In this document: piece after piece, positions 17,351 to 34,804 of the stretch | How the letters are laid out: every line of letters starts with the position of its first letter | Position numbering within the stretch: the first letter of the stretch is position 1 | Assembly (NCBI GenBank): GCA_013140565.1 | Contig: JABFSP010000224.1 | Location: forward strand, 1-40,755 | Direction of reading: 5' to 3' | From: Ignavibacteria bacterium | GTDB lineage: Bacteria; Bacteroidota; Ignavibacteria; Tepidaquicellales; OLB5 | Length of the DNA stretch: 40,755 nt | The notes under the pieces: model-generated | Told to the model about the DNA's origin: nothing | What the model saw: the letters and a program-made list of their open reading frames with translations, nothing else | Database searches by the model: none | Translations under genes and position numbers: made by a program

Positions 17351-18310
17351 TTAATTATTAATTATTGGATTCAAATTACTGTGCAATAGAGTGGGCTTGC
17401 CATCAGAGTTCGAAATATCCAATATCTGTGAACTTGCCACTGATGACTGTTCGAGGTCCGTACCATCGAGGTCACTTACACTTATACCTAACCAATTAGC
17501 AGCCTGCCCGAAATAAACTTTTGCTAATCTGCGGTACTGGTCGGTTTTGTTATCATAGTTCACTGAATCAGCATTTATCAGAGCTGATGAACTCTGACCA
17601 TATCGTGATGCCATTGCAAGCAGATACTTTGCAGATGCTAAATTACATATGCAGTGGAAATCACTATCAGGGGCTGATATTACATTCTGAACATTGAAAC
17701 TGTGCCTTATTGTGTACAGCATCCTGAAAGTTGATGCCAAAGATGACTTAAACCTTAATTTATAAGCATTGGAATCATTCAGATATATTTCGTAATCTCT
17801 TTTATCGATATACACTGCAGGGACACTGTCAATAGGATGTTCAATACTTATTATTCCGCTGAAATCAATCTCCCAGTTCGATGGCAGGTCAAATGAATAA
17901 CCTGCAGCAAATGTTTCCGGCTTAAAGTTACGTTCTAATGGCCTGTACTTGCTGTAAATGTTGATAGCCTCATCAAGATGTTCAATAGCCTCATTCTTCT
18001 TAATCGATGCTCCGGTAAGTATTGCAGAATGGTCACCATTTAACTTTAACTGTTTTGATGGTGTACTTATAACTGCATTCACTGTAGTAAATGCTGAATT
18101 TGAGGTCCCGTCATAAATATATATTTCATCACCTGCGGTAAATCCTTTTATAGAATCAACTGCAAATGTTGTAATACCTGCGGCATGAGTACCTGCACCG
18201 GTTGTCAAAGCTGTTTTAACCAGCTCACCAGCAAGATCCTTGACCTTTAAGTCAATAGCGTTAAGAAATTGTATTTTAGTTTTTGAACCCAAGAGTTTTA
18301 TTAATTCCAA
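17351..18310 (-). CDS. Head-tail connector-like protein with inserted beta-barrel (319 aa)
   Basis: First gene after the capsid protein, as expected for an HK97-gp6-type connector. Residues 23-108 hold a small barrel with the TTFAVDSIKGFTAGDEIYIYD ... KLNGDHSAILTGASI pattern used as a decoration in phage structural proteins. Helices with IEHLDEAINIYSKYRP and the C-terminal LASAKYLLAMASRYGQSSSAL region look like connector helices. The only start in this frame is TTG at 18310, inside a terminator-like hairpin. A second TTG at 18292 is an alternative. The exact start is therefore uncertain. Confidence 0.55.
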   Translation of the reverse strand: MELIKLLGSKTKIQFLNAIDLKVKDLAGELVKTALTTGAGTHAAGITTFAVDSIKGFTAGDEIYIYDGTSNSAFTTVNAVISTPSKQLKLNGDHSAILTGASIKKNEAIEHLDEAINIYSKYRPLERNFKPETFAAGYSFDLPSNWEIDFSGIISIEHPIDSVPAVYIDKRDYEIYLNDSNAYKLRFKSSLASTFRMLYTIRHSFNVQNVISAPDSDFHCICNLASAKYLLAMASRYGQSSSALINADSVNYDNKTDQYRRLAKVYFGQAANWLGISVSDLDGTDLEQSSVASSQILDISNSDGKPTLLHSNLNPIINN

Positions 18311-18339
18311 AAGCCCCGTTTTGTTTCAAACGGGGCTTT
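18310..18339 (-). terminator. Hairpin terminator/attenuator after the capsid gene
   Basis: AAAGCCCCGTTT (18310-18321) and AAACGGGGCTTT (18328-18339) form a perfect 12-bp stem with a 6-base loop, followed on the minus strand by TTTT. It lies 18 bases past the capsid stop and would reduce expression of downstream tail genes relative to capsid, or protect the capsid mRNA end. Confidence 0.75.
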
Positions 18340-18356
18340 GATTAAGTTTTTATATT

Positions 18357-20621
18357 TTATGGATTAGAACCAACAAATCCACGGAAGTCTAAAATATTAC
18401 CGCCATAAATATGTCTTATCTTAAATGTTATCTTGTCATTTGAGAATAATGAACCAACATTAGGCATATCCTGAGTGAATATTTCAGGCTCCTGCTGATT
18501 ATCCAGGAAGCCAATTTCAATTGTTGGAGTATATGATGGATCTGCAACAAGTCTCCAATTGTTAGAATTTGACTGATGAACAACCACAATAGGCTCTACA
18601 CCAAATGTCTGATGGAAATCACTCTTTTCATTTGCTTTATTCCATGCCTGAGTTGTTAATTCATAAGCAGTTTTTTCGTTATCGGATCCATTTGCCACGA
18701 GCAGATATTTAGGAGGAATACCAAGCTTCTTGGCTGAATCCTTTTCAGTCTGATTTTTCATAACATTGCGTGCAGCAAGATATGAAGTTGAGTTCAATGC
18801 AGTGTTTAAAAGATTACCACCATGTGTTGCATGATATAATGCTACAGAATCATATATGGTCGGATTGCCAATGATCATATCCATTACAAATTCATACAGT
18901 GTAATCTTAGCGGCACGACCTAAACGGATTGGAATAGATGCAATTAAACCAACATCATCATTCTTTATAGACTCAAGGGTTACATCTTCTGTACCTCCCT
19001 TTTTGGTTACTGCGAATGTTGCTTTTTCATCGGTTGGTGTGGTGAGCGCTGTATATGAACCTGCCTGATTTACAGTTGGCAAATTACCATAACCGCCCCA
19101 TCTTACTCTCTCGTTATTTCTGAAATCAGTTGTACCTCCGATTGTTGAACACAATTTTTTCCAATCTTCAAATGGAAGCATTTTATACTCAGCAACAGCG
19201 AGTCTGTGTAATGTGCTGGCCAGTGCATTTGTAAAGCCAGTAGTAACTACGCTTTCAGATAAAATACCATTATCGCCGTTTGTCCTTCCGGTTACATAAG
19301 TATCACCTGTAAAAGTCCTGTACCATTCCTTTATGGAAAACATCCTTTTATCAACATCTTTGAATTCCTGCATTTCGGCTTCTGTTAACCTTGCTTTCAT
19401 ATTATGGCTCATAAGCATATAGGTTAACTGTGCAATAGATCTATCCACTGCATCTCTTCCCACTCTCATATCAAGACCCCTGTTGTTAATTGGATTAGGA
19501 TTTATTTCAGCAAGTATTCTCTGCTGCCCTGCAATAGCAGTATCAAGATCGGCTTCGGCAAATTTCTTTTTATCGAATTGAGTCAATAAATAATTTTTTG
19601 CAGGCTGGGGAAGATTGCATTCAGCAAGTTTGTTTCTTAAAATGGTTCCGCATGCTAATATCTCAGCTCTTTCAAGAATAGCATTGGTACCGTTCTGACC
19701 TTCAGTTAATGGTGTTGCCGGTGCAGGTGCCGGAGTTCCTACAGGCTTAACTTCTTTCTTGAGAAGTTCAGCAAGGATAGGATTCTTAGTTGGTTTATCC
19801 TTATCCAGCATTGGCTGTATTTCCGTTAATGATTTCTTTGTGGACTCTGTTAATGTTGGTGAATTCATTAATGTTATTGCATACTCCCAGAAGCTTTGCA
19901 GCAGATCATCATCATTGATTGATTCGGCTGTGGCACCTTCAGAAATAAGCATTGCACTTGATAAAAGTGCAAAGATCTTGAGTTTCAATTCGGGATTCAC
20001 GTTGTTATCTCCGTTTAAGTTTATAGTTAAGTTAGAATTTAAAGACTCTACAAGTTTGATTATTTTACCGCCTGCATTTCCTGCAGCAACAGGATCAACA
20101 CTCTGTGCGCTGGTTATTTTAGTTACAGTAGCCACACACTTATCAGCTATGTTCTCAATTATCCAGTCACCCCATGCAACAATGCTTAAACCTAATTCTT
20201 TGCCTGCGCTGGATATTTCAGCAAGAGATTGTTTGAATGATTCAGCAAGTCCCTCACCATTCTTTACATTAAATATTCCTGTTATACATTTTTTTACACT
20301 ATCCCAGGTTACATTACTGTACCATCCGACCTGTGAATTCACACCTGTATTTTCTGCGGATAAGTGGTCACCCTCTGACCTCAAGAGCGCAGGAACACCC
20401 TCAAATATTTTATTATTCACAGCTTCGATGCATGCTTTTTCAGTGTAGTTTTTAAACACAGGAATCTTAGCGCCATTTACCTCAGCAAATGTATTTGCAG
20501 TAGCTGTAATACCTGCATAAAGGATATCGCATTTGTATTTACTTCCCGGAACTAATGCTTCGGTTAGCTTTACAGATGGGCTGAAGACATCATTAATTTT
20601 TTTGCTTTTTCTGAATTTCAT
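18357..20621 (-). CDS. Fused prohead protease - scaffold - major capsid protein (754 aa)
   Basis: One frame carries functions that are usually separate. Residues 30-190 match the prohead protease pattern: GDHLSAENTGVNSQVGW with candidate His86, a GLSIVAWG strand with candidate Ser146, then the linker VTKITSAQSVDPVAAGNAGG. Residues 190-390 are helical and charged, like a scaffold/delta domain. Residues 395-754 resemble an HK97-fold or Mu-gpT-like coat protein (IKEWYRTFTGDTYV, KKLCSTIGGTTDFRNNERVRWGGYGNLP, FFHATHGGN-like YHATHGGNLL, FGVEPIVVV). Maturation would need cleavage after the scaffold. It follows the portal and a conserved leader hairpin element. Confidence 0.85.
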   Translation of the reverse strand: MKFRKSKKINDVFSPSVKLTEALVPGSKYKCDILYAGITATANTFAEVNGAKIPVFKNYTEKACIEAVNNKIFEGVPALLRSEGDHLSAENTGVNSQVGWYSNVTWDSVKKCITGIFNVKNGEGLAESFKQSLAEISSAGKELGLSIVAWGDWIIENIADKCVATVTKITSAQSVDPVAAGNAGGKIIKLVESLNSNLTINLNGDNNVNPELKLKIFALLSSAMLISEGATAESINDDDLLQSFWEYAITLMNSPTLTESTKKSLTEIQPMLDKDKPTKNPILAELLKKEVKPVGTPAPAPATPLTEGQNGTNAILERAEILACGTILRNKLAECNLPQPAKNYLLTQFDKKKFAEADLDTAIAGQQRILAEINPNPINNRGLDMRVGRDAVDRSIAQLTYMLMSHNMKARLTEAEMQEFKDVDKRMFSIKEWYRTFTGDTYVTGRTNGDNGILSESVVTTGFTNALASTLHRLAVAEYKMLPFEDWKKLCSTIGGTTDFRNNERVRWGGYGNLPTVNQAGSYTALTTPTDEKATFAVTKKGGTEDVTLESIKNDDVGLIASIPIRLGRAAKITLYEFVMDMIIGNPTIYDSVALYHATHGGNLLNTALNSTSYLAARNVMKNQTEKDSAKKLGIPPKYLLVANGSDNEKTAYELTTQAWNKANEKSDFHQTFGVEPIVVVHQSNSNNWRLVADPSYTPTIEIGFLDNQQEPEIFTQDMPNVGSLFSNDKITFKIRHIYGGNILDFRGFVGSNP

Positions 20622-20641
20622 GATTTGAGGTAAATAAAAAA

Positions 20642-20705
20642 GGGCTGCAATCCCTATTGGAATTACAGCCCTCAGTACTGTTCCGGCTATACCGGAAGAT
20701 CCTTA
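20642..20705 (-). promoter_or_regulatory. Conserved leader RNA element, copy A (upstream of capsid gene)
   Basis: Read on the minus strand: TAAGGA (20705-20700), a 17-base hairpin TTCCGG/CCGGAA (20697-20681), then TACTGA (20677-20672). A 13-bp stem follows, GGGCTGTAATTCC with GGGATTGCAGCCC, around loop AATA (20671-20642), then a T-run. The capsid start codon follows 20 bases later. The same layout occurs upstream of the ParB-methyltransferase. It may be an attenuator, protein-binding site or terminator. Confidence 0.65.
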
Positions 20706-20800
20706 TCGACGTGTTACATGGCGATTTAATTAGTTAATGTGGAGAACATTGAATCAATGAAACTAATTTAAAACCGAATTTTCCAAAAGTCAAGTGTTAA

Positions 20801-20956
20801 TTAACTTTTTTTATTTATTTTTTTCATTTCAGCAAGATGAAAACCAAGCTTATTATTAGCTTTTCTCATTCCATCATTGCCCGCTGCAGGTGGTGTATAA
20901 GTCTTTTTAATCTCATGCAGCTTCTGATTTTGTTGTTTTATCTTCTTTTTTTCCAT
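20801..20956 (-). CDS. Small basic protein overlapping the portal end (51 aa)
   Basis: A 52-codon frame starts at ATG 20956, inside the last part of the portal gene in another frame, preceded by GAGGG. It ends with TAA at 20801. The protein is highly basic and mostly helical (MEKKKIKQQNQKLHEIKK ... LGFHLAEMKKINKKS) with a T-P-P-A-A-G-N-D-G turn in the middle. It fills much of the space between portal and capsid genes. A nucleic-acid- or scaffold-binding role is possible, but no family was recognised. Confidence 0.5.
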   Translation of the reverse strand: MEKKKIKQQNQKLHEIKKTYTPPAAGNDGMRKANNKLGFHLAEMKKINKKS

Positions 20957-22376
20957 TGCCCTCTGGGTTATTGTTATTTGGTTCAGGTGGATTCTCTAGA
21001 ACTTCTTTTTCAATCTGAGATACTTCTGTATCAACATCAATATCATGCCCAAGCATATCACAAATAGAAATAAATATTTTCTGTGCGGTTTGCTGTGATA
21101 ATAACTTAGCTGTTACAGCTTTTGTTAATACTGCCTGAACCTTATCTAATCCCTCACCGATTTTGCTAAAGTCCCTGCGTTCAAGTTCCGGACGTTTTAT
21201 ATCGTAATTGATATGCTCCAACTCTTCAGGCGTTATATTAATACCTGCGCGTTTGTAAATGATGGCCTGATGAACGCAGAACTTAAACATTGTCTCAAGC
21301 ATGAAAACAACCTGCTGTTGTATTTTCCTGAATTTTCGCATTGTGGGTTCATCCTGTTCTTTGGCTGTAGCAAGGTTAGTATTGCCGCCATCACCCATCC
21401 AGTATTCAGGAATCCTTTGTGAACCCAAAGCAAGATTTTTGAGAAGCCTGATAATATCTGTAATATCCAGTGTTTTTAAATCCGGATTGAAAATATCAAC
21501 CTCAGTTTCCTTATCAGTTACCAGTCGTTGAATATCTGTTGTAAATGGATTATTTTTCTTGAAATCTTTAACCGCATTTTCACCACCTTTAACTTTCACA
21601 TGCTGAACATATGACAGGTGAACATCAATAACTTTGATAACTTTAAATAACACTTTTTTCATAACATCGATAGTATCAAGGAGTGCAATAAGGTCCGAAA
21701 CGCCCTCCGGCTGGTTAGATACATTGTTTATAGCAAAATAGAATGTTTCACCTACAAGCATACCATATGTGATATTACCCGGCACATCATCTTCACGGAC
21801 TACATTCAGTATTTTAGGTGAGTTACCATTCAAACCTTTTAACTTCACCTGCTTAATATCTTCAACATTCAGCTCGTTGGTGATTATCTTATCAAGGTTT
21901 TTAGGATCTATAAATCCCATTTTTACGGAGCCGTCTACAGTATTAATGAAAACAGGAAGTATAAGCATTCCGTTAATTCGCTGGTCAAGTACCTTTTTCT
22001 CAAACCGTAAGTTCATATTATTCTTTTTCCAGAAGTCATCGATTATCATTTTCACCTGTTTTGTAATCTCTTCACCACGTACAGCAGTAATCCCGGACTC
22101 CTTATCAACTGAGAATGAATAAGAAAATCCATCACCACAAACATAATCGATTATTACATCGATAATGAACTTTGCAATAGGATCTGTTGTATAAGCTGTG
22201 AAAGCAAGTTCAAGCTGCCTATCCCTGCTGATTGGGTTTAATCCTTTAACATTATTAGCTCCATACTTCCGGTATAACTCCTCATCGTTATCAATAGCAG
22301 CCTCAGTTAATATTTTGAGTTCATCTTCTTTCAAACCCAAAAACACTTTACCTATGAATTTTTGTATTTTGTTCAT
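20913..22376 (-). CDS. Portal protein (487 aa)
   Basis: The portal forms the dodecameric DNA gate of the procapsid. The sequence shows the usual order: an N-terminal arm, the DPIAKFIIDVIIDYVCGDGFSY block near residues 65-86, and a wing domain with strands (LILPVFINTVDGSVKMGFIDPKNLDKI). A stem/crown region follows (FKKNNPFTTDIQRLVTDKETEVDIFNPDLKTLDI; RIPEYWMGDGGNTNLATAKEQDEPTMRKFRKIQQQVVFMLETMF), typical of SPP1/DUF935-like portals. The C-terminus is acidic and disordered (EVLENPPEPNNNNPEGNG). It lies between terminase and capsid genes, which confirms the assignment. Confidence 0.85.
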   Translation of the reverse strand: MNKIQKFIGKVFLGLKEDELKILTEAAIDNDEELYRKYGANNVKGLNPISRDRQLELAFTAYTTDPIAKFIIDVIIDYVCGDGFSYSFSVDKESGITAVRGEEITKQVKMIIDDFWKKNNMNLRFEKKVLDQRINGMLILPVFINTVDGSVKMGFIDPKNLDKIITNELNVEDIKQVKLKGLNGNSPKILNVVREDDVPGNITYGMLVGETFYFAINNVSNQPEGVSDLIALLDTIDVMKKVLFKVIKVIDVHLSYVQHVKVKGGENAVKDFKKNNPFTTDIQRLVTDKETEVDIFNPDLKTLDITDIIRLLKNLALGSQRIPEYWMGDGGNTNLATAKEQDEPTMRKFRKIQQQVVFMLETMFKFCVHQAIIYKRAGINITPEELEHINYDIKRPELERRDFSKIGEGLDKVQAVLTKAVTAKLLSQQTAQKIFISICDMLGHDIDVDTEVSQIEKEVLENPPEPNNNNPEGNGKKEDKTTKSEAA

Positions 22377-22388
22377 TTTGGTTATTGT

Positions 22389-22607
22389 TTATTTCTTTAA
22401 AAATTCCCTGCGCTGTTTTTCAGTCTTGGGTTTAAATATCTGAAGTACTGCAAGCTTCAATGCTTTTTCAAGTGCCACCCTGTTATGCTGCGGCATGTTC
22501 GACCTGTCAATCCATTTAGGAAGTTTTTCAAGACGGTTAACAAATCTTCTTATACGTAATCTGTTTACGTATGTTTCAAAGAATGAGAATAACGATTCTA
22601 ATTTCAT
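22389..22607 (-). CDS. Small basic helical protein between terminase and portal (72 aa)
   Basis: The start overlaps the large-terminase stop as TAATG. The protein is basic and helical (FFETYVNRLRIRRFVNRLEKLPKWIDRSNMPQHNRVALEKALKLAVLQIF), with a C-terminal KPKTEKQRREFLKK. It may interact with DNA or with the portal, but no family is recognised. Tight coupling on both sides makes it a real gene. Confidence 0.6.
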   Translation of the reverse strand: MKLESLFSFFETYVNRLRIRRFVNRLEKLPKWIDRSNMPQHNRVALEKALKLAVLQIFKPKTEKQRREFLKK

Positions 22608-24256
22608 TATGTTGTTAGTTTAAATTGATTGGATATTAAATTTTGTTGTATTGTATCTGTTTCAGTTTCACCATAACCAGGTGGTGTACTATGCTTTTTC
22701 CAATTCCACATGACATATGCGTCACCGTGGTTTGTTGACCTGCCTAATGTTTTTTTTATTTCTATTTTTGATTGAACTTTTATTTTCTTGTCAGATTTTA
22801 TTTCATATTTCGGTGCTAATAAATCAGCTTTTAATTCATCGATATCAGGGATAGCAGGTTTACCCAGCCTAAAATCCTCTCTGGCTTTCCACCACATTTG
22901 AGACCTTAGATTCAGATATATTTCCTCATCATTGGGAATAGAGATAGGTGTTGAACCTGCTATAATATTTATTTCACTTTCATTGTGTCCCAGCTTTTTC
23001 ATTTCATTAACAGTACCAGCGCCAACACCAATACCGTCAATACCGATATCATGGTCATTGACATTCTTATCTTTAGCTCTGATATGAACTACATCACCAA
23101 GCTGATTACTATCAGGACATGCAAAGCTTTCAAGGCTCAAGCATACATATCCTTTGCCCTCACAGATTGCCGCTTCATCACCAGCCTCACTATTTGCAAC
23201 ATCCACACCAAGCCCGTTAACATTATCAGCACCCATCAATATGTTGTATGCTGTTACTTTATCTATATCAAGATTGCCGTTTTCATCGCACAATTCATTA
23301 TAACGCTTTATTGCATCATCAACCCATTCAGCCTTAATTAGCGCATCTACTGCACTATCAGGGGTTATACCGCGCGCACGTGATAAGTACATAGGATGAT
23401 TCTCTCCATATTTATCTTTAAGTCTTTGCAAACCCTGCCTTGTCTGAGCACCCGGAATAACTTCTTTATCAAGAACTATGTTCGGATGGTCATAAGATGA
23501 AATTCTTATTTGTTTTAAGTTCTGTATTTTGTTGAACTCCTTAAAATTATCAAGCCTGCTGTTGGGATTACCCAGTGCAAGTATCAGATTATGACCGCCA
23601 GTTGATGTATTAATTAAAGCATTAAGTGTTGGAATAGGTACACCCGGAGTTTCCTCAATGATAATAAGCATATGCTCAGCATGAAAACCCTGTGCCTTTG
23701 TAGTAGAATCCTCGCTAGCCTTGGTACCCGCTACAAACGCCTCAGCTTTCCACTTTGTATCCATTTCAGTACCCATTCTTAACTCACCGGTCAAAAGCTT
23801 ACCTTTACCGAAATTAGAATACAATCTGCTGATTTCTGACCATATCTGTGAATGTAGCTGGTCACGTTTTGGAGCTGTAGTTATTACATATGCACCGGTG
23901 GTTTCGGGATCGGTATTCTTATTTTCCTGCCAGCAATCCAAAAACCACAAAACTACTATTGCCGCAGTAAAAGTCTTTTGAACACCTACAGATGAACGTA
24001 TTACAACCCAGTATCCAGCTGCAAGTGATTCCAATGTTTGCATAACAGGATTAAATGAACCATCCCACTTATGTCCTTTGTATTCAGGAAATAAAGTCCA
24101 ATCAAGTGATTCAGGCCTGACTCCTAATCTTTCAACTGCATATCGATAAGGGTTTTGTTTATAAAATTCCAACTGAGATGCATAATTTTTCATACGCTCA
24201 CTATGCCGTCTGTTTAACTCTAACTGTGCCTCAGCCCTAATTTGTAATGTTGACAT
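22607..24256 (-). CDS. Terminase large subunit (549 aa)
   Basis: The packaging motor and headful/cos nuclease. An ATPase domain spans about residues 75-260: P-loop region RSSVGVQKT (87-95), Walker B-like LIIIEE (197-202) and a coupling motif near GNPNSRLDNF. A RuvC-like nuclease domain follows with candidate metal ligands Asp352 (GLGVDVANSEAGDEAA), Asp407 (IGIDGIGVGAG) and Asp512 (NHGDAYVMWNW). The P-loop has Q where G normally precedes K-T, and Walker B has E instead of D, so both motifs are off consensus. It overlaps the small subunit by 20 bases. Identity is firm. Confidence 0.9.
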   Translation of the reverse strand: MSTLQIRAEAQLELNRRHSERMKNYASQLEFYKQNPYRYAVERLGVRPESLDWTLFPEYKGHKWDGSFNPVMQTLESLAAGYWVVIRSSVGVQKTFTAAIVVLWFLDCWQENKNTDPETTGAYVITTAPKRDQLHSQIWSEISRLYSNFGKGKLLTGELRMGTEMDTKWKAEAFVAGTKASEDSTTKAQGFHAEHMLIIIEETPGVPIPTLNALINTSTGGHNLILALGNPNSRLDNFKEFNKIQNLKQIRISSYDHPNIVLDKEVIPGAQTRQGLQRLKDKYGENHPMYLSRARGITPDSAVDALIKAEWVDDAIKRYNELCDENGNLDIDKVTAYNILMGADNVNGLGVDVANSEAGDEAAICEGKGYVCLSLESFACPDSNQLGDVVHIRAKDKNVNDHDIGIDGIGVGAGTVNEMKKLGHNESEINIIAGSTPISIPNDEEIYLNLRSQMWWKAREDFRLGKPAIPDIDELKADLLAPKYEIKSDKKIKVQSKIEIKKTLGRSTNHGDAYVMWNWKKHSTPPGYGETETDTIQQNLISNQFKLTT

Positions 24257-24749
24257 TTCTTTCAGCTAATATTTTTTGTGGCTCTTCACCCTGAGCTATC
24301 CTGTGTAATTCTGCATCTGTGAATGATGAAAGATCATAGTTTTGTTTATCTGATTTCTCAATTACAATTTTATCCAAACCAAACAACTTAAATATTAATG
24401 ATGAAATCTTTGTTCTTGCATCAATTTCTTTTAATACCTTTTCCTGTTTTTCAGCATCTGTACCAACTGCATTGAATGCCATTGCAGCTTTATTATCTAA
24501 CCTTTGAAGTTTTAAATATTCCCTGATTTTTATCTTGTTGGCTTCTTTCCTCTGTTCAGCCATCCACTCCTCAAGCTCATCTTCGACATCCCTCTGAACC
24601 TGGCTTTTACTGTAATTCAGTTTTTGAGCTATATCCCTGTATGTAAATCCCTCCTGATATAAAGTCCATGCCTGATGCATTCTTTCAATCTGTTTTACTG
24701 ACCTTTTTTTTGTTCTTGTCTTAACAACTGACTTTTCCTTTTGTCCCAC
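24237..24749 (-). CDS. Terminase small subunit (170 aa)
   Basis: A helix-turn-helix is clear at about residues 25-58 (AWTLYQEGFTYRDIAQKLNYSKSQVQRDVEDEL), the DNA-recognition part of small terminases. Residues 65-135 are helical and charged and would mediate oligomerisation. The C-terminus contains SSFTDAELHRIAQGEEPQKIL, a segment often contacting the large subunit. It precedes the large subunit with overlap and follows the ParB-methyltransferase by 11 bases. Confidence 0.85.
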   Translation of the reverse strand: MGQKEKSVVKTRTKKRSVKQIERMHQAWTLYQEGFTYRDIAQKLNYSKSQVQRDVEDELEEWMAEQRKEANKIKIREYLKLQRLDNKAAMAFNAVGTDAEKQEKVLKEIDARTKISSLIFKLFGLDKIVIEKSDKQNYDLSSFTDAELHRIAQGEEPQKILAERNVNITN

Positions 24750-24760
24750 GATGTCCCATG

Positions 24761-26083
24761 TTAAGATTTGAGGAAAGCATTGTTATTTAATAGCTTTCCA
24801 TTTTTGGTAACTTTGCATATTATCTTGTTATCATTACAGAATTTTATATATCTTTTAATAATGACATCTGCATACTTTGGGTCAAGTTCAATCAGGTAAC
24901 AAAACCTTTGCATTTGTTCACACCCGATTAAGGTTGATCCACTCCCACCAAAAGCATCTACCACTATGTCACCACGCTGCGAACTCTTCCTTAAAGCCCT
25001 CTCCGAAAGCCTCACTGGCTTTTGTGTTGGATGAACATAGTCATTCGTGTTATCACGATTAATAAACCATAAGTCCAAAACCTCAATAAAGCTATCGAAA
25101 TCAAGAGAATGTACATCTTTCAGATTTGCAAGTTTCTTATTTGTAAAATGTTTTTTCCCTTGCTTCCATCCAACAATGCACGGTTCAAAGCATCTGTGAT
25201 AATCCTGTCCATAAGAAAATACAAACCTTTCTTTAACCCAAATAACAGTCTGGCTTTTATGCCAAAGAGCAGATTCAAATGCCTGTAGGTTAATAACTAC
25301 ATTTCTATCAGCAAACCACCAATACAGAACACAATCATCAGTTGTGAATTTATAAAGGTTTTCCAGAGTTTTAGTATAAAGTTCTAAAGCCTCTTCCGGT
25401 TTTTTATTATCATTGAATATTTTACCGTCATTTCCATACTTACCTTTTGAATATGAATTACCGGACGGCGATTTATAATCAACGTTATAGGGAGGATCCG
25501 TATGAATTAATCTGGCTTTTTTGTTTTTAAACAATATTTTAAAATATTTCTCATCCTTTGAATCACCGCAAATAAGCCTGTGACCGTTCAGCTGATAAAT
25601 ATCACCAAGTTTGGTTTGAGGCTTTTTGATTTTTGCATATTCAGCCTCAGCATCAAAACCATCTTCCTTAACTGCCTCCGAATCAAAGAAGTGAAGTTCT
25701 TCTTTACCAAATCCCCAGCTTTTCAGGTCACCAAAGGAAAAAGAGGAAGCTAACTTTTCAAAATCCCATTCACCTGTATTCTTATTTGACCGGATGAGAT
25801 ATTCTTCAAATTCCTTTTTATTCAGTTTCCTGTTCGGGACCCGGGCTTCAATCATCTCATCACCACGGCCAAGATCAATTAAAGCCTTAACTCGCATATG
25901 ACCTGCAACAAGAGTATTATCTGTGTTTACTGCAACAATCTCAACATAATTGAATTTAATGATTGATTGTTTTAACTCTTCGAATTGAGACTCTGATATC
26001 TTTCTTGGATTATTTTCATATCCTTTAAGCTCAGATACTTTCCTCTTTTCGGTACTCCAAACTATTTTTTTATCTTTTTTCAT
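24761..26083 (-). CDS. ParB-domain DNA methyltransferase (440 aa)
   Basis: Residues 8-125 form a ParB/Spo0J-like N-terminal domain with NPRK (25-28) and G-H-M-R (61-64). Residues 160-430 are a beta-class N4-cytosine/N6-adenine methyltransferase with catalytic DPPY (196-199), followed by the S-adenosylmethionine loop DAFGGSGST (376-384). This fusion is widespread in phages next to terminase genes and probably protects phage DNA at specific sites. It is the first large gene of the late operon and is preceded at 19 bases by the second copy of the leader element. Target sequence and base (N4 or N6) cannot be deduced. Confidence 0.9.
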   Translation of the reverse strand: MKKDKKIVWSTEKRKVSELKGYENNPRKISESQFEELKQSIIKFNYVEIVAVNTDNTLVAGHMRVKALIDLGRGDEMIEARVPNRKLNKKEFEEYLIRSNKNTGEWDFEKLASSFSFGDLKSWGFGKEELHFFDSEAVKEDGFDAEAEYAKIKKPQTKLGDIYQLNGHRLICGDSKDEKYFKILFKNKKARLIHTDPPYNVDYKSPSGNSYSKGKYGNDGKIFNDNKKPEEALELYTKTLENLYKFTTDDCVLYWWFADRNVVINLQAFESALWHKSQTVIWVKERFVFSYGQDYHRCFEPCIVGWKQGKKHFTNKKLANLKDVHSLDFDSFIEVLDLWFINRDNTNDYVHPTQKPVRLSERALRKSSQRGDIVVDAFGGSGSTLIGCEQMQRFCYLIELDPKYADVIIKRYIKFCNDNKIICKVTKNGKLLNNNAFLKS

Positions 26084-26102
26084 ATTCTAATAAATAAAAA
26101 TA

Positions 26103-26163
26103 GGGCTGCAACTCACCAATTTGAGCTACAGCCCTCAGTATTAACAATTTTATGTTTTCCTTA
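26103..26163 (-). promoter_or_regulatory. Conserved leader RNA element, copy B (upstream of ParB-methyltransferase)
   Basis: Read on the minus strand: TAAGGA (26163-26158), a small AACA/TGTT hairpin, then TACTGA (26140-26135). A 13-bp stem follows, GGGCTGTAGCTCA with TGAGTTGCAGCCC, around loop AATTGG (26134-26103), then TATTTTTATTT. The start codon is 19 bases on. The stem keeps pairing with copy A through changed base pairs (AATTCC/GGGATT versus AGCTCA/TGAGTT). Confidence 0.65.
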
Positions 26164-26196
26164 CCGGCTTGAAATAATTGTACGGTGAAACACTTT

Positions 26197-26382
26197 TTAA
26201 ACCTGCAGGTGAATTTTATTCTTCTTTGATGCTATGATTTCCTTTGAATCCACCTGTTTACCACCCACCCTAAGCTTTAAGAAAAGCTTATTGGTATATT
26301 CTGAATGAAATATCACCTTGACCTTATCGCCATCAACAACAAACTTTGCGCTTTTTGGTACTTCAATGATAATCTCTTTCAT
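26197..26382 (-). CDS. Small beta-rich protein, first late gene (61 aa)
   Basis: A compact strand-rich protein (KEIIIEVPKSAKFVVDGDKVKVIFHSEY ... KEIIASKKNKIHLQV) with no membrane or signal segment. It starts only two bases past a near-perfect Bacteroidota promoter, so its mRNA would be leaderless or nearly so. It precedes the copy B leader element. Function unknown. Possible roles are a small transcription or translation regulator of the late operon, from position only. Confidence 0.6.
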   Translation of the reverse strand: MKEIIIEVPKSAKFVVDGDKVKVIFHSEYTNKLFLKLRVGGKQVDSKEIIASKKNKIHLQV

Positions 26383-26383
26383 A

Positions 26384-26415
26384 CAAAAATAACCTTATAA
26401 TTAATTTTTAACAAA
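26384..26415 (-). promoter_or_regulatory. Late promoter, TTTG-N20-TATTTTTG
   Basis: On the minus strand the -33 TTTG (26412-26415) and -7 TATTTTTG (26384-26391) are separated by exactly 20 bases. This is the same spacing and -7 sequence as the cargo promoter at 8329-8360. It sits at the head of the packaging and structural genes. The expected start of RNA almost coincides with the ATG at 26382. Confidence 0.75.
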
Positions 26416-26484
26416 CTTCAAGGGATTTATATCCCAAAACAGGTGATTTCCTTATAATTTCATTCCAATTAGATTTAATGAAAA

Positions 26485-26904
26485 ATGGGAATTTTAAACA
26501 AGAAGTATTTAGGCTCAGCTTCAATGATGTTGCAAGAACTCTTTGATGGTGTATCATCCGATGAAAAACAACAGATGAAATCAATCTTTGATAATTTAAG
26601 CCAGGAGTTATACCACCAGTACCTGTTGGAAGTTCAACAGGATATATTAACATATATTTCATCAACTCCCGAAGAGCGCAATACAAACTGGATTGATTTA
26701 TCTTACAAATTAAAACTGCATTATTTTTCATTTATTTATCTTCAGCATGGTTATTTACTGATGCGGCGCCTTGCTGCTATGCCTAATAAAAATGGAATCA
26801 GACGTGTACCGGCATTTTTTTCTGTTATGTCTGTTGATATAAAGAACAAAATATTTAAAGATTCCATTTTTAATGATGAGTTAAGTTATGAAGATTTTGC
26901 TTAG
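26485..26904 (+). CDS. Rightward cargo protein between early and late operons (139 aa)
   Basis: A soluble, mainly helical protein (SASMMLQELFDGVSSDEKQQMKSIFDNLSQELYHQYLLEVQQDIL) with an aromatic middle (LKLHYFSFIYLQHGYLLMRRL) and an acidic end. It runs against the phage operons and its stop overlaps that of the leftward 148-aa gene tail-to-tail. A TATAAT-like -10 lies at 26453-26458, but its -35 is poor. The leftward frame across the same DNA looks like a shadow. No family was recognised. Placement at an operon boundary is typical of cargo genes. Confidence 0.6.
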   Translation: MGILNKKYLGSASMMLQELFDGVSSDEKQQMKSIFDNLSQELYHQYLLEVQQDILTYISSTPEERNTNWIDLSYKLKLHYFSFIYLQHGYLLMRRLAAMPNKNGIRRVPAFFSVMSVDIKNKIFKDSIFNDELSYEDFA

Positions 26905-27347
26905 TTCTTTACTTCAACTGGATATTCAATATTGAATTTACCCTCTTTAATCGTGCCAATCTGATAATATATATTATTATCTACATCTCTGTATGATATT
27001 TGAAACTGCACAAAAATATCATTCGGATGACCGGTAGAATTATCACTTTGTAAAAAGAAATGCGTTATAGAGCTTTGTGACTTAACCAAATCCCCACTCT
27101 TAATCCCATGATTTACTACAGGCAAACCTACCGGAGTTAACAGTTCAAAATGCTCAAAGAATAAATCAGAGCCAACATTTAACATATGAAACGATATGCC
27201 ATCATGAGCTCTTTTCCAATTTTGCTGATGTAGTCTGGGAAGTATGTTTTTCTTTCTTAAAGTCAAATCATCGTTCCTGTTTTTTGAGTATTGATATATA
27301 TTAAAAAATAAACTTATTGCAGCTATTATGTATCCGAGATATTCCAT
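26901..27347 (-). CDS. Single-TM hypothetical protein (148 aa)
   Basis: The ATG at 27347 is chosen because GGAG lies nine bases upstream and a membrane helix follows directly (EYLGYIIAAISLFFNIYQYSK). After the anchor comes a basic stretch and a beta-rich soluble domain (residues 50-148; HMLNVGSDLFFEHFELL, FVQFQISYRDVDNNIYYQIGTI) that probably faces the cytoplasm. Proteins with this build occur in hosts and prophages without assigned function. It is the last gene of the early operon. Confidence 0.6.
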   Translation of the reverse strand: MEYLGYIIAAISLFFNIYQYSKNRNDDLTLRKKNILPRLHQQNWKRAHDGISFHMLNVGSDLFFEHFELLTPVGLPVVNHGIKSGDLVKSQSSITHFFLQSDNSTGHPNDIFVQFQISYRDVDNNIYYQIGTIKEGKFNIEYPVEVKN

Positions 27348-27401
27348 TTTGTACATCTCCTTTCTATTACAAATATACCCTGCAAACATTGGTTAATTCA
27401 A

Positions 27402-27890
27402 TTAATTAATATTGCGGGCTCTTGGTGAAAGATAAGGTATACCGATTAAATTAAACAAATCGATTTCCTCTCTTACCGGGATAATTTCACCCTTACGGGT
27501 TAGGAATCCATTAACACCGTTAAATCCCTTTTTTACCCAGCCAGATGCTAAAACATTATGCGAATACTCAACACTGCCAGTTCTGATTGCAAAGATATAT
27601 CCCCAGTTATCGAGATGAGCAACAAACAGATCAACTTTAATACCTTGATAATAAAATTGTTTATATTTTTCGCCATTCTTGATGTACTGAAAATCTCGGT
27701 TTAATTTAAGTAAATGTAAACCCAGTACATTGAACAGCTTATTAGCTTGCTTTGGGATCAGAACTATTTCAATATCTTTTACAATTTCTTTTTCCCTGCG
27801 GATAGAACCTGCTATCTCAATCCGTTCACAGTAAGGCTCAAGGAGTACCTTTAAACTCTCCGCTATTGGTTTGGCTTCTGTTAGTAACAT
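27402..27890 (-). CDS. PolX-type nucleotidyltransferase domain protein (162 aa)
   Basis: The palm of a DNA polymerase beta family enzyme is visible: G-S-I-R-R at about 27-31, the metal-binding D-I-E (38-40, where D-x-D is more usual) and a third acidic residue in GIKVDLF near 87. The end carries RKGEIIPVREEIDLFNLIGIPYLSPRARN, the thumb-end motif of the family. The 8-kDa lyase and fingers domains are absent, so this is a stand-alone catalytic domain as found in several phages. It could transfer nucleotides in repair or modification. It lies four bases from a deoxyribosyltransferase-like gene. Confidence 0.8.
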   Translation of the reverse strand: MLLTEAKPIAESLKVLLEPYCERIEIAGSIRREKEIVKDIEIVLIPKQANKLFNVLGLHLLKLNRDFQYIKNGEKYKQFYYQGIKVDLFVAHLDNWGYIFAIRTGSVEYSHNVLASGWVKKGFNGVNGFLTRKGEIIPVREEIDLFNLIGIPYLSPRARNIN

Positions 27891-27893
27891 TGG

Positions 27894-28328
27894 TTATTTA
27901 GGTACAACAGGAAAATTAATTTTAATATTTTTTATTAATTCAGTGTATTCATAAAAGGATGATTCAAAACATCGTCTCATTAAACCTATATTTTCACCTT
28001 TAGCATGTAATACAAAAATTGGTACTTTTGACGCATATGCAATTCCTATCTCTACACAAGAATCCATGCCTAGGTTACTAATTGCAATTACCAAATCAGA
28101 ATGACCTGCCCAGTAAGAATCGTAATCAAATGATTTTTGCCCTTTTTCACTCCATATCCAAGTTGATAAATCCTCGGGTTTACCATCTCTTAAATTTTCC
28201 TCATTAGCATTCCTTACAAATGATTTTACTTCAACATTTGTAAATCTTGTCTCAAGAAGATCCGTCAATAGTTCAACTGCATGTTGATTTTTCCAGCTTG
28301 TAGCTATGTAAATTTTGAAAACTTCCAT
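27894..28328 (-). CDS. Nucleoside 2-deoxyribosyltransferase-like protein (144 aa)
   Basis: The fold signature is an N-terminal strand KIYIATSWKNQ, then DYDSYWAGHSDLVIAISNLGMDSCVEIGIAYA with the candidate catalytic glutamate, then PIFVLHA. These match nucleoside 2-deoxyribosyltransferase-like Rossmann proteins, which exchange bases on deoxynucleosides or hydrolyse nucleotides. In a phage early operon it may change nucleotide pools or remove a signalling nucleotide. The exact substrate is not predictable. It is directly upstream of the PolX-type gene, suggesting a joint role in nucleotide metabolism. Confidence 0.75.
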   Translation of the reverse strand: MEVFKIYIATSWKNQHAVELLTDLLETRFTNVEVKSFVRNANEENLRDGKPEDLSTWIWSEKGQKSFDYDSYWAGHSDLVIAISNLGMDSCVEIGIAYASKVPIFVLHAKGENIGLMRRCFESSFYEYTELIKNIKINFPVVPK

Positions 28329-28343
28329 GCTTATTCCTTTCTA

Positions 28344-28733
28344 TTATATTATTTTAGTTACTTCAAATCTTACAACCCATGCTGTTTTCCATTTTTCATC
28401 TTTTGTTGTACGCCACCAACGCCAATAAGCTCTATCCGGCAAACAATCTGTTTTACCAACTTTGTATAAAGGAATGTTATTATCACACATATACTGAAAG
28501 CCTTCTTTTTCATAATCACTTTCCGGTGCATCTTTCATATCCTCCTGATACACTGCAAGGATCTTGATTTCAGCTACTTTTTTACCGCCAAACCTGGGTG
28601 ACTTATCCCATGCCTGTACAGTTTCGCCCGGCTTAAAACTTGCAGCATGTCTTGGATTCCAGTACCTGCGGGTTACTGATTTGTGACCTGCAAGAAGTGC
28701 AGCAGTTGTTTTAGCAAATGATATTATTTTCAT
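28344..28733 (-). CDS. ASCH/PUA-like domain protein (129 aa)
   Basis: The N-terminus KIISFAKTTAALLAGHKSVTRRYWNPRHA, the strand VAEIKILAVYQEDM, the conserved DYEKEGFQYM and the terminal strand AWVVRFEV form the ASCH pattern. These are small RNA- or nucleotide-binding proteins related to PUA, common in phage early regions. Some members hydrolyse modified nucleosides, but activity here is not certain. It overlaps the gene before it by four bases (ATGA). Confidence 0.8.
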   Translation of the reverse strand: MKIISFAKTTAALLAGHKSVTRRYWNPRHAASFKPGETVQAWDKSPRFGGKKVAEIKILAVYQEDMKDAPESDYEKEGFQYMCDNNIPLYKVGKTDCLPDRAYWRWWRTTKDEKWKTAWVVRFEVTKII

Positions 28734-29164
28734 GCCGGTAATAACCCTTTATAATTTTTCTCTTTCAATACTTCAAAAAATGTTTGTTTACCGTCAAATG
28801 CATATGGCAAAAAAACCTCCATAAACTCAACCTGATTTAAAAGTATCATTGATACTTGAATCTGAACCCAGTCAAACAATAACTTCCAAGCTGTTCGCTG
28901 TGCCTGTTTTTTGCATGTTTCCTCAGCTGATTCATTCCATCTTTTATAACCCTTTTTAAGTTCCTTGAATACAAGCTCAGATTTTGCAGGAAGCTTAAAG
29001 CTAATGGGTTTTCCGTTAACTTCAACCTGGAATGCCATACCTGATATTTCCCCATCAACATACCATTTACTAATATTCATTGCCCCGGCATCGACAAGTA
29101 GTTTTTCAATGAGCATTATTGATTTTTCAGGTAAAACTGTGGATGTGTAGTTTTTTAAATTCAT
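28730..29164 (-). CDS. Conserved phage early protein, unknown function (144 aa)
   Basis: The ATG at 29164 is used because it matches the start of a widespread phage protein that I recognise by pattern (MNLKNYTSTVLPEKSIMLIEKLLVDAGA ... FKLPAK ... EQAQRTAWKLLFDWVQIQVSMI-like ... VEFMEVFLPYAFDGKQTFFE). The family has no assigned function that I know of. The protein is cytosolic, alpha/beta at first and helical later. It usually lies among recombination and replication genes, as here. Confidence 0.7.
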   Translation of the reverse strand: MNLKNYTSTVLPEKSIMLIEKLLVDAGAMNISKWYVDGEISGMAFQVEVNGKPISFKLPAKSELVFKELKKGYKRWNESAEETCKKQAQRTAWKLLFDWVQIQVSMILLNQVEFMEVFLPYAFDGKQTFFEVLKEKNYKGLLPA

Positions 29165-29219
29165 TTTTTTATCCTCTAATTTATATATATTTGTATGTTT
29201 AAAACATAAATTAATTGCC

Positions 29220-29426
29220 ATGCTATCCAAAACGTTCGATGTAGAGGGTTATTTCATAGTTGTCGATATTGATGAATCTGGAAAATTCTATCATGCTTAT
29301 TGTCCTGATGAATCCAAATTAGACCCATTCTTAAAAAACCTGTTTGTTATCACCGACCAAGAACATATTGTTCATTATAATTTAAAAGAAGCAGTTATAG
29401 ATTTTAATCACAGACCAGAAAAGTAG
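29220..29426 (+). CDS. Small rightward cargo protein (68 aa)
   Basis: A small acidic, aromatic protein (EGYFIVVDIDESGKFYHAYCPDESKLDPFL) of probable alpha/beta fold on the strand opposite to its neighbours. A TATATTTG -7 element (29186-29193) lies 26 bases upstream, though without a good -33. Its stop is four bases from the stop of the leftward fusion gene. No family recognised. It may be a small regulator or cargo gene. Confidence 0.55.
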   Translation: MLSKTFDVEGYFIVVDIDESGKFYHAYCPDESKLDPFLKNLFVITDQEHIVHYNLKEAVIDFNHRPEK

Positions 29427-29430
29427 ATTA

Positions 29431-31953
29431 TCATTTTACTTTAAGCATATCGAATAATGTAATCACATCTTTTTTTTTAGTGGCATCACTGCAGTACTGA
29501 GCGCCATCGGTGTATGATAACTCATTCAGTTCAATTCCTACACCATACCTATCCAGCTTTATACTTCTATACGGGACTGTCATTAATCCACCAAATGGAT
29601 CTAAAACTATCTCACCCTTGGAAGAGTACCTTTCAATGAGCCGGTCAACAATATCAAACTGCAGGGGACATAGATGCTTTTCAAGACCTTTAACAGCTTG
29701 GTTTGTATTGAGTGTGTGCATTCTTGTGACATCATCCCACACAAATGGACTGTTAGACACCACAGGAACCGCCATAAACGTCCGTGGCAGCTTTTTTAAC
29801 GCCTCCAGCGAGTGACAAATCCCTACATGTTCCTCAAAATCATAGATGTTTGATGTGCTGTACTCTTTCCAGCCTTTGCTTATTTGTGAAAGCGTTAACT
29901 TCATTATTTCATCCTGTGATAGCAGCCTGTTACCCCCTGAGCGCCAATACGAATGCGCATCAAGCTGCCATCTTTCCACAGGATAGTCCTCTTTTTTTTT
30001 AGTCACAGGTTCATCTGCATACCCGTTTGTCATATCTGTTGGCGGTTTCCTGAATATCAAAACATACTCCGGTAAACCACACCCCATTTTAGTGCCGTCT
30101 TTACACTGTTCAGTCCATCCAAGCCTGTGGGTTTGATTATTTTCCTGAACCACATCTGTAGTCACCGTGATTTTACCCATCAAGTGAAAACCATGCTTTT
30201 CAAAATGAGCTACCGTTTTACCTGAAAAATCAGATAGGGAAGTGAATCCTACACCGTTCTGATATGAATAACGGATCCTGTCCTTAACATGAACAGCGCA
30301 AATTCTACCCGGCTTTAAAACTCTTAACATCTGTGGTGTAGTAAAATCCATTTGTTTAAAGAATTCAGCATCACCATCATTATGCCCGAAATCGTGATAT
30401 GATTCACAATACTCATACTGGTCACTGAACGGAATCGAAGTGACCTCGAGGTGAACACTATCATCCGGCCATGAGGAAAGCTCTATGACATTATCATTAT
30501 TTATGCAGTGATAATAATCCGTTTTAATTTCTTGCCGCTTTACACCCATGGAGCGTTTTAAATCAGCTTTAATGTTTATAGAACTTAATCCGAACTTTTT
30601 AACAATCGATGTCATTTGCCTTTGCTGTTCTTCATAATCATTCCACTTACGCAGAATAACCCTTTTAATCTGACGTTCAGCATCAGTGTGAATGATATCA
30701 ATCCTGATTTTTTTACTTGCTGAATAAATTCTGACTACACGGTGAATCGCCTGAATAAATTCTTCAAATTTATATGTTATACCTGCAAAGATTTCCCAGT
30801 CACAATGATACTGCCAGTTAGAACCATACCCTGCAATTTCAGGCTTGGTAGATATATACTGATATTTACCTGCCGCAAAATCCATTAAATACTGTTCGCG
30901 CTCTTCCATCTTTTGTGTGCCAAAAACAGATTTAACAGCAGGTATCGCTTTCTGAATGGCTTTGCGTTCCTCTTCTAGGTGATGCCATATAGCGCAATGT
31001 TTATCCGGATGCTGGTTTAATAATTCAAGTACCTTATCAATACGGACCTGAATGCTCTCACGTTTTTCTTTGGCAGCTTCCTGTAGGCTTGATGAACCGT
31101 CTCTTATCAGTTTGGTTTGACCGTCCCTATCAGATAAGATTTCACGTTCTTTTAAAATCACTTCATGCCAGTTTACCTCTAATTCAGGTACTTCATAGCC
31201 TTTATCGGAATAACCCAGATCACTGGGTTTTGTGATGAACACTGCCCAGCTTGAAACCCACAGCCAGAATTCCTGAACCTTATGCGGATACAAAGTGAGG
31301 TCACCAGCCTTTTGTGAATTACGCTGAAAGAAACGGGTTAAAGCCTGACCACGGTCCATGATACCCAGGAAGTGAGCATAATTTAAAAGCTCTGTAAAGT
31401 CATTTGGTGATGGTGTGGCTGTGAATATATGCCTGTAAGGAATTACAGTGAATTCATTCATCATGTAATTTGTTACAACCGTATCAAGATTACGAATGCA
31501 ACTGAACTCATCACCACCGAAATAACCTATTTCCTTTGGATTGAACTTTGAACTTTTGATTTGTTCATAGTTACTGATAAACAGGTTTCTTTTATCCTTG
31601 AGGTAGAGTTTCATCATTTCATCATGACTTTTTACATAATGAACATTTAACCCAAGCATAGCAGCATCCTTAAAAAATTCAAGCCTTGCACCCAAAGGTA
31701 AACCCATCAGCGAGGGCATTTCTGTATGCTTTGCAATTAACCGAGCTATTTCAAGATTAATAACAGTTTTACCCAAAGAGAACTTTAAGAATGCACCCCT
31801 GCGACCACCTGCAATACACCACTGAATAACATCCTTTTGATGTGGTTTGCATATCGGGTTGATATCATCCTGTGATATTTCAAAGCCTGAGCTATCCGCA
31901 ATCTTTATTTTGCTCTCAAGGAAGCTGTAGTATGTGTTTAAATCTAAGTTCAA
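29431..31953 (-). CDS. Helicase - DNA methyltransferase fusion (840 aa)
   Basis: Residues 20-450 form an SNF2/DEAD-type helicase: Walker A-like FLKFSLGKT near 55, G-G-D-E-F-S as Walker B, TATP (motif III), and QAIHRVVRIYS (motif VI). Residues 490-830 form a beta-class N4/N6 methyltransferase with SIPFSDQYEY in place of the catalytic (S/D)PP(Y/F) motif and DPFGG as S-adenosylmethionine loop. The SIPF variant is shared by a recognisable group of phage enzymes, so it is probably active. Joining a translocase to a methyltransferase recalls type I/III restriction logic without a nuclease. It overlaps the C5 methyltransferase by four bases. Confidence 0.85.
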   Translation of the reverse strand: MNLDLNTYYSFLESKIKIADSSGFEISQDDINPICKPHQKDVIQWCIAGGRRGAFLKFSLGKTVINLEIARLIAKHTEMPSLMGLPLGARLEFFKDAAMLGLNVHYVKSHDEMMKLYLKDKRNLFISNYEQIKSSKFNPKEIGYFGGDEFSCIRNLDTVVTNYMMNEFTVIPYRHIFTATPSPNDFTELLNYAHFLGIMDRGQALTRFFQRNSQKAGDLTLYPHKVQEFWLWVSSWAVFITKPSDLGYSDKGYEVPELEVNWHEVILKEREILSDRDGQTKLIRDGSSSLQEAAKEKRESIQVRIDKVLELLNQHPDKHCAIWHHLEEERKAIQKAIPAVKSVFGTQKMEEREQYLMDFAAGKYQYISTKPEIAGYGSNWQYHCDWEIFAGITYKFEEFIQAIHRVVRIYSASKKIRIDIIHTDAERQIKRVILRKWNDYEEQQRQMTSIVKKFGLSSINIKADLKRSMGVKRQEIKTDYYHCINNDNVIELSSWPDDSVHLEVTSIPFSDQYEYCESYHDFGHNDGDAEFFKQMDFTTPQMLRVLKPGRICAVHVKDRIRYSYQNGVGFTSLSDFSGKTVAHFEKHGFHLMGKITVTTDVVQENNQTHRLGWTEQCKDGTKMGCGLPEYVLIFRKPPTDMTNGYADEPVTKKKEDYPVERWQLDAHSYWRSGGNRLLSQDEIMKLTLSQISKGWKEYSTSNIYDFEEHVGICHSLEALKKLPRTFMAVPVVSNSPFVWDDVTRMHTLNTNQAVKGLEKHLCPLQFDIVDRLIERYSSKGEIVLDPFGGLMTVPYRSIKLDRYGVGIELNELSYTDGAQYCSDATKKKDVITLFDMLKVK

Positions 31954-33320
31954 TTAAATGTTTGAATTCCTCTCTCCAAAAGCCAAGTCATAACTTGGGG
32001 ATTCACTGCATTTCCATATTGACGAACCTGTTCTTCGGGTGAACCTAATACGATATAATCATCATCGAAATTCATTCCTTTGTGAATTTCCTTAACCCCA
32101 AGCATCCTGTAATAACACTCTCCAATTTTAGGCTTTTGAAATGTTACAATTCCCGTGCGATCCTTAGTTGTAATAGTTCTGATTGCATCGCTCAAAGAAG
32201 TAAACTGTGGAGTCTTATAATAATAATTCAGGAAGCAATGCCAGGAGTCAGTTGTTACTATTCCGTGATATGGTACAGTCGTAACTGTACTTAATGCTTC
32301 CTGAACATCTCTCACGGTGCTCTTACCTTTATTTTCAACTATAAATGGAGTAACAATACCATGATGCCTGCCACCTGCAGCAATAGTATAAAGTGGTTCA
32401 AATATGCTGTAATCCTTTAAGGATCTATTTACTTTCAGCATAAAAGGCTCATCGTTGTATCTATCAATTCCCATTTGAATCCTGTTTCTTGTAGCAGGTG
32501 CTAACCTATCTCCAATTAATTTACCCGGATTAGTCCAGTCAATTATATTAAAGGCAGCGTACCGATAAGGTTCAACAACAGAATTACAAACAGAACAGTT
32601 ATAAGTATATTGGCGCCTTTGACCGTATGCACCCCAATGAAAATCATCTTTTTTCCAAGTTTGAATCGATTCATTATCATGTTCACATTTATGGCAATAA
32701 GCATTTGGAGTGAATTCAAGGTCAGGGATTCTATTACCTTTTTTCCAGAAAACAATATACATTCTATCCCTGCTTTGAGGTGTTGGATGAAAAAACATGC
32801 TGTTCAGATAATTGATTTTATAATCATATCCCTGCCTTGTCATCGCATTTAACCAATCAGGAAAATTAATCCACTTATAAGCTCCGGGCACATTTTCAAC
32901 TATTATCAATCCATAGTTATGGAATTCAGCAAACCGGGGAACATCCCACATTGTAGCTCTTGACCTTTCCTCAGCATCATCATTAAATAACTCAGACTGC
33001 GCTGCCTTAATTTTATCAAGTGATTTGTTCCGTGCGTAACCCTGCCAGGTACATTCAGGTGAAGTTAATAATATATCTGTTGTAGGGAATCTTTCCGGCT
33101 TTGATGTAGCCATGTTGGTTTGCACATGTAAAGTGTTAGGAAAATTACGTGCATGTGTTTGTAGTGCTATTTTCCAATGATTAACAGCAACCGTAATTTC
33201 AAGTCCACCGCCTAATTTAACGATTAAACGCTTTGCACCCTGTGATGTACCGCCAGCACCGCAGAATTGGTCTTTTATCTTTAATACAGAACCAGTCCTT
33301 TTATATATGAAATTTGCCAA
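31950..33320 (-). CDS. DNA (cytosine-5-)-methyltransferase with zinc ribbon (456 aa)
   Basis: The C5 motifs appear in order: D-Q-F-C-G-A-G-G-T (17-25, SAM binding), catalytic Cys90 in TSPECTWQG (PCQ-loop variant), ENV at 142-144, QSRDR (182-186), and the closing GNAV near 436. Between motif VIII and the target-recognition region, Cys209, Cys212, Cys242 and Cys245 make a C-x2-C...C-x2-C zinc ribbon inserted in the target-recognition part. The S-P-E-C-T form of the active loop is typical of a phage-borne subgroup. No cognate restriction enzyme is adjacent, so it is probably protective or epigenetic. Confidence 0.9.
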   Translation of the reverse strand: MANFIYKRTGSVLKIKDQFCGAGGTSQGAKRLIVKLGGGLEITVAVNHWKIALQTHARNFPNTLHVQTNMATSKPERFPTTDILLTSPECTWQGYARNKSLDKIKAAQSELFNDDAEERSRATMWDVPRFAEFHNYGLIIVENVPGAYKWINFPDWLNAMTRQGYDYKINYLNSMFFHPTPQSRDRMYIVFWKKGNRIPDLEFTPNAYCHKCEHDNESIQTWKKDDFHWGAYGQRRQYTYNCSVCNSVVEPYRYAAFNIIDWTNPGKLIGDRLAPATRNRIQMGIDRYNDEPFMLKVNRSLKDYSIFEPLYTIAAGGRHHGIVTPFIVENKGKSTVRDVQEALSTVTTVPYHGIVTTDSWHCFLNYYYKTPQFTSLSDAIRTITTKDRTGIVTFQKPKIGECYYRMLGVKEIHKGMNFDDDYIVLGSPEEQVRQYGNAVNPQVMTWLLERGIQTFN

Positions 33321-33947: not shown

Positions 33948-33990
33948 GACTTTAAATGTTTAAGTTTATTAAATAACCTTTGTTAAACGC

Positions 33991-34578: not shown

Positions 34579-34723
34579 TTTCAGATAATCCCTTTTGATT
34601 TAATATGATATCAGATAAGGTATCATTATTATTTTTTACCAATTTGAATACAAATATTTGTACGATATTTCCCCCTAATGATAAAGCTAATGCAAGAATC
34701 AAAATGTATATAATAGCTTCCAA
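34565..34723 (-). CDS. Small membrane peptide with TTG start (52 aa)
   Basis: A 53-codon frame starts with TTG at 34723, preceded by GGGGG eight bases upstream and an in-frame stop just before it. A transmembrane helix follows at once (EAIIYILILALALSLGGNIVQIFVF), then a short polar tail (KNNNDTLSDIILNQKGLSENENP). It overlaps the HNH gene start by 14 bases. The membrane helix with charged tail is coherent, so I take it as a gene. Function is unknown. Confidence 0.55.
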   Translation of the reverse strand: MEAIIYILILALALSLGGNIVQIFVFKLVKNNNDTLSDIILNQKGLSENENP

Positions 34724-34758
34724 ATATTATCCCCCGCAGTATGAACCTTTTTAAATTT

Positions 34759-34804
34759 GCTATGCCGTTTTCTCTTTTTCACAGTTAGCGAGTGACGGCA
34801 TAGC
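34759..34804. repeat. 10-bp inverted repeat in a non-coding stretch of the early operon
   Basis: GCTATGCCGT (34759-34768) and ACGGCATAGC (34795-34804) are perfect reverse complements around a 26-base loop. The stretch 34724-34931 has no convincing gene. An RNA hairpin or replication/recombination site is possible. Confidence 0.5.

Follow-up and report, generated by a model that had tools for sequence, protein, structure and literature searches.

Two related copies of a probable intrinsic terminator at gene-block boundaries of a putative temperate phage

The window, that is the whole stretch of DNA analysed, is a complete contig (C281, 40,755 bp) from a draft genome of 3.73 Mb. By its gene content this contig appears to be a temperate phage, with an S24/HTH repressor gene on the plus strand (39858-40499) that is followed on the minus strand by recombination genes, DNA methyltransferases, a methyltransferase-HTH-terminase-like-portal block, the capsid gene, tail genes and an endolysin. 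The two elements considered here are both on the minus strand, copy A separating the portal block from the capsid gene, and copy B the early genes from a methyltransferase gene. The gene 3' of copy A (18357..20621, minus strand) encodes a capsid protein of 754 aa, with matches to PF25209 (Phage_capsid_4, E 4.4e-38) and to the head protease/capsid families phrog_133 and phrog_4523; the gene 3' of copy B (24761..26083, minus strand) encodes a ParB-like/DNA methyltransferase of 440 aa (PF01555, E 1.5e-30; phrog_498, E 2.7e-105). Three DNA methyltransferase genes are carried by the phage (24761-26083, 29431-31953, 31950-33320), two of the N6/N4 type, one of them fused to a helicase-like region, and one of the C5 type. 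Near one contig end, a tRNA-Thr (GGT) gene (1190-1265, plus strand) is flanked by inverted-repeat hairpins at 1149-1173 and 1384-1409; it may belong to the phage or mark an integration site.

Letter-by-letter reading of the minus strand confirmed both copies and their order of TAAGGA, stem, loop, T-tract and ATG, as given in the preliminary description. Copy A consists of the TAAGGA box (20705-20700), which shares a 9-base CGRTAAGGA-like context with copy B, TACTGAGGGCTGTA (20677-20664), the loop AATA, TTGCAGCCC (20650-20642) and the T-rich tract TTTTTTATTTA (20631..20641), with the capsid ATG at 20621. Copy B consists of TAAGGA (26163-26158), TACTGAGGGCTGTA (26140-26127), the loop AATTGG, TTGCAGCCC (26111-26103) and the T-rich tract TATTTTTATTTA (26091..26102), with the methyltransferase ATG at 26083. 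TAAGGA, TACTGAGGGCTGTA, TTGCAGCCCT and TTTTTATTTA are common to the two copies; the spacers between TAAGGA and TACTGAGGGCTGTA (22 vs 17 nt) have nothing in common. The small hairpin that had been described as a variable part of both copies was found in copy A (TTCCGGTATAGCCGGAA, 20681..20697, minus strand), where it folds with -9.1 kcal/mol and 3% of shuffles are as low, but not in copy B, where the corresponding value is -1.5 kcal/mol and 21% of shuffles are as low. A speculative candidate promoter, chosen by eye as an imperfect form of TTTG/TAnnTTTG, may lie 5' of copy A (CTTTTGG ... TTAGTTTC, 20759..20789, minus strand), and no counterpart to it was found for copy B.

The main stem has 13 bp in both copies, or 14-15 with flanking pairs, of which 7 are G-C, and is followed by TTTTTTATTT and TATTTTTATTT, respectively. 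As minus-strand RNA, the hairpin of copy A (GAGGGCTGTAATTCC / AATA / GGGATTGCAGCCCTT, 20640..20673) folds with -25.1 kcal/mol and that of copy B (AGGGCTGTAGCTCA / AATTGG / TGAGTTGCAGCCCT, 26102..26135) with -25.0 kcal/mol, both with a terminator-like appearance. The plus-strand RNAs reach -15.9 and -15.7 kcal/mol, about 9 kcal/mol weaker, because U-G and G-U pairs of the stem become A-C mismatches there. The T-tract is likewise on the minus side only in both copies, and this strand bias fits a signal in the minus-strand RNA, in particular an intrinsic terminator. Both copies lie outside genes, after same-strand stops at 20801 (A) and 26197 (B), and their stems and T-tracts are the strongest terminator-like signals on either strand of positions 20001-40000. 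A G+C-based hairpin with a short loop and an immediate T-tract on one strand, placed between genes after a co-directional one, is what they share with intrinsic terminators; they differ in being a related pair within one genome with additional common boxes, and in having a start codon about 20 nt further on, although the latter is common in the host genus. A point against the terminator reading is that copy A lies 127 nt past its nearest upstream stop (20801), as compared to 11-95 nt, with one outlier, in the host examples listed. On balance, we read copies A and B, with a probability of about 0.68, as one rho-independent terminator present twice in a temperate phage of a Bacteroidota-type host. 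Among the options named in the preliminary description, this corresponds to the duplicated terminator cassette, which draws support from the terminator anatomy, the strand bias and the ordinary-terminator look of similar sequences elsewhere.

For the host genus, about 0.7 Mb of same-genus DNA was surveyed, with genes defined by a simple ORF rule and 146 terminators called outside genes. Among the 92 of these that have a co-directional stop within 150 nt upstream, the ATG of the next gene follows within 45 nt in 15, in several cases as hairpin, TTTTTAT, about 20 nt and ATG. The layout of hairpin, T-tract and ATG in copies A and B is thus not unusual but common in the host genus. Together with the missing upstream hairpin in copy B and the results on antiterminators and leader peptides given below, this weakens the idea of a dedicated leader RNA.

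To quantify the similarity of the two copies, local alignment scores were used. The A-B alignment scores 59 and reaches from TACTGAGGG through TTTTTATTTA, about 50 nt in all. In 1000 dinucleotide shuffles of the copies the scores average 14 and do not exceed 26; no more than 32 is reached with any of 133 real phage terminators of similar stem, and no more than 26 elsewhere in the window. With a score so far above shuffles, other terminators and the rest of the window, the copies are either related or kept alike by selection, and we infer that they arose by duplication. Of 235 viral loci, 3 have a related terminator pair within one phage contig when a score of at least 42 is required.

Of the six inner pairs of the stem, two are the same in both copies, two differ on one side (A-U to G-U and U-G to U-A) and two on both sides (U-A to C-G and C-G to A-U); in a gapped alignment of 12 pairs, 9 are invariant, 2 changed on one side and 1 on both, the second two-sided pair adjoining the gap. 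The covariation claimed in the preliminary description holds insofar as the inner pairs change while all still pair, but carries no statistical weight with two sequences (255 of 500 shuffles reach the observed value); the changes show that pairing is kept, as it must be in any terminator. They also bear on the view that the copies are direct repeats with no role in transcription, such as a recombination scar or the cassette boundaries of a moved block of 5.4 kb. The copies do flank the methyltransferase-to-portal block in the same orientation, yet full pairing despite changes of the inner stem argues that the hairpin is maintained, and no relatives that could show an exchange of the block were found; we regard this view as the most improbable of those considered. 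Hardly more credible is a protein-binding hairpin in the 5' leader, serving as an operator for a coat protein or regulator in the repression or protection of the mRNA. The location about 20 nt before both start codons would suit such a site, which had been among the options proposed, but the loops (AATA vs AATTGG) offer no common sequence to recognise, the inner stem differs between the copies, and the T-tract is left unexplained, so that the binding-site option is not the one supported.

An attenuator of the leader-peptide or riboswitch type, the former reading having also been proposed initially in general form, would resemble copies A and B in having a terminator-like hairpin that follows a possible promoter and precedes the first gene. 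The copies lack the alternative antiterminator pairing and the leader peptide of such systems: folding of the leaders with the 3' arm kept unpaired revealed no competing antiterminator fold, with gaps of 18.6 (A) and 20.1 (B) kcal/mol, and no leader peptide is common to both copies, A having no ORF after TAAGGA and B a 25-codon TTG ORF that overlaps the gene start. Rfam gave no match to either copy (see below), and the attenuator option is not the one supported. A different comparison is offered by the put RNA of phage HK022, which occurs as two related copies, putL and putR, and has an antitermination activity that needs two long bulged stem-loops (PMC9378689). Copies A and B resemble it in their length of about 65-70 nt and in being two related copies ahead of gene blocks in one temperate phage. 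They are unlike it in that the stem ends in a T-tract and copy B has one stem only; two stem-loops per copy were not found, the upstream segment of copy B (-1.5 kcal/mol) being no different from shuffles.

The main rival to a plain terminator is a regulated one, at which a factor of the phage or host, the same for both copies, or the RNA itself would allow timed read-through into the methyltransferase and capsid blocks via the TAAGGA and ACTG boxes. In lambdoid phages, read-through into late genes is allowed by antitermination. In its favour, the phage is temperate and has an S24 repressor, the copies occupy its early-to-late and portal-to-capsid junctions, and the conserved boxes, which are not part of the stem, are separated by an unrelated spacer; having more in common than a terminator needs (TAAGGA, TACTG and TTTTTATTTA) while the spacer is wholly different, they could be under an additional constraint. 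Against regulation stand the lack of a competing antiterminator fold, an upstream hairpin that is not common to both copies, the failure to recognise any scanned ORF as an antiterminator gene, and the lack of further copies in the genomes searched, which makes it an unlikely alternative. Its more specific form, a phage-specific cis element (TAAGGA, spacer and ACTGAG-terminator) heading two late blocks, with read-through controlled by an unrecognised phage factor as the late-gene switch of an uncharacterised Bacteroidota phage lineage, seems improbable to us. Should read-through prove to be regulated, the copies would reveal a point of late-gene control in a phage group of which little is known.

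Further copies were searched for at several levels. The host genome holds A and B only. With a covariance model (R1) built from both copies, no third copy was found in either of two genome sets, 44 from the order and 248 from the phylum; the best other matches scored 33-37 bits, compared to 95-99 for A and B, and mostly look like gene-end terminators. Two of them, after the genes for an S20-like ribosomal protein (L347) and a sorting-domain protein (L344), have the look of ordinary terminators, and one (L345) belongs to the leader of a radical-SAM-like gene, where it comes directly 3' of a TATATTTG promoter-like box and has an unrelated stem sequence. A protein of the same order was found to end in an NYPNPFNPTT-type sorting domain, which together with TAnnTTTG-like boxes suggests that the phage host is probably of a Bacteroidota/Ignavibacteria type. 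Among 85,462 species genomes the exact pattern had 5 scattered matches, against about 10 chance matches estimated from base counts; none is a third copy, all five being unrelated hairpins and several clearly gene-end terminators. IMG/VR likewise yielded no third copy. The search of the window against Rfam 15 returned no match at the gathering score or with a plausible E-value except a tRNA, and around copy A only a chance snoRNA match (E 3.6) on the opposite strand. Mu-gpT-DE, the Rfam name of a capsid-associated RNA, was considered as a lead to the identity of the element, but is not among the Rfam families matched in the window. The host-genome, covariance-model and exact-pattern searches found, within their scope, no homologs with compensatory changes, and look-alikes that are mostly ordinary terminators; the lack of such homologs is an outcome that the preliminary description itself had named as refuting its leader element.

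A possible cross-phage leader motif, ACTGAGGGC...GCCCTNTTTT, was found in 57 viral stretches of IMG/VR, most of them with good hairpins, and was dropped when an anagram of its prefix (GTCA in place of ACTG before AGGGC...GCCCTNTTTT) gave 43, both counts including near-identical or clonal contigs. ACTG is absent from 83 sampled terminators chosen regardless of prefix. With the ACTG prefix about as common as its anagram, the 57 stretches were taken as ordinary terminators.

Scans for close relatives of the phage capsid, terminase and methyltransferase found none. The only phage record with relatives of both capsid and portal is that of the Microcystis phage Mae-JY22 (PP438414.1), with distant similarity (33% over 88% for the capsid, 25% over 89% for the portal) to window positions 18357-22376. 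Its capsid gene overlaps the preceding gene and so leaves no room for a leader. That this record is of a cyanobacterial phage suggests a little-sampled phage lineage that crosses distant hosts. As the element of copies A and B is known from this phage alone, every evolutionary argument about it is limited.

The best reading of the two copies is an ordinary terminator that marks the borders of gene blocks, rather than a regulatory RNA of a new class. In the minus-strand RNA, the hairpin of 13-15 bp with its G+C-rich base, followed by the U-tract, would cause the RNA polymerase to pause and be released. Transcription of the early block (ORFs between about 39.3 and 26.2 kb) would stop at copy B, and that of the methyltransferase-HTH-terminase-portal block at copy A. 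Because intergenic spaces are short, the start codon of the following gene is about 20 nt away, and with the terminator so near we propose that this gene is expressed by partial read-through or from its own promoter; from these features we infer termination in vivo at both copies as well as the mode of transcription downstream. Copies A and B would accordingly show where the transcription units of a divergent temperate phage probably border on each other, with one terminator sequence used twice. They also advise caution, as a hairpin with compensatory changes a short way upstream of a start codon is often the terminator of the previous gene in the compact genomes of this host group.

Three further observations concern other terminators. 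A third strong hairpin, AAAGCCCCGTTTGAAACAAAACGGGGCTTT, is located 3' of the capsid gene at 18310-18339, so that this gene may be a transcription unit of its own between copy A and that terminator. In two different species of the host genus (L383 and L390), a near-identical hairpin, AGGCATCTTAAAAATAAGATGCCTTTT, is followed by a TATCTTTG box directly before the ATG, apparently a terminator merged with the promoter of the following gene. Finally, the viral contig IMGVR_UViG_3300042112_000092 contains two related terminators (L156 and L170) whose stem changes keep the pairing (GTCCC/GGGGGC vs GTTCC/GGGGAC). They turn up again in many contigs of marine type.
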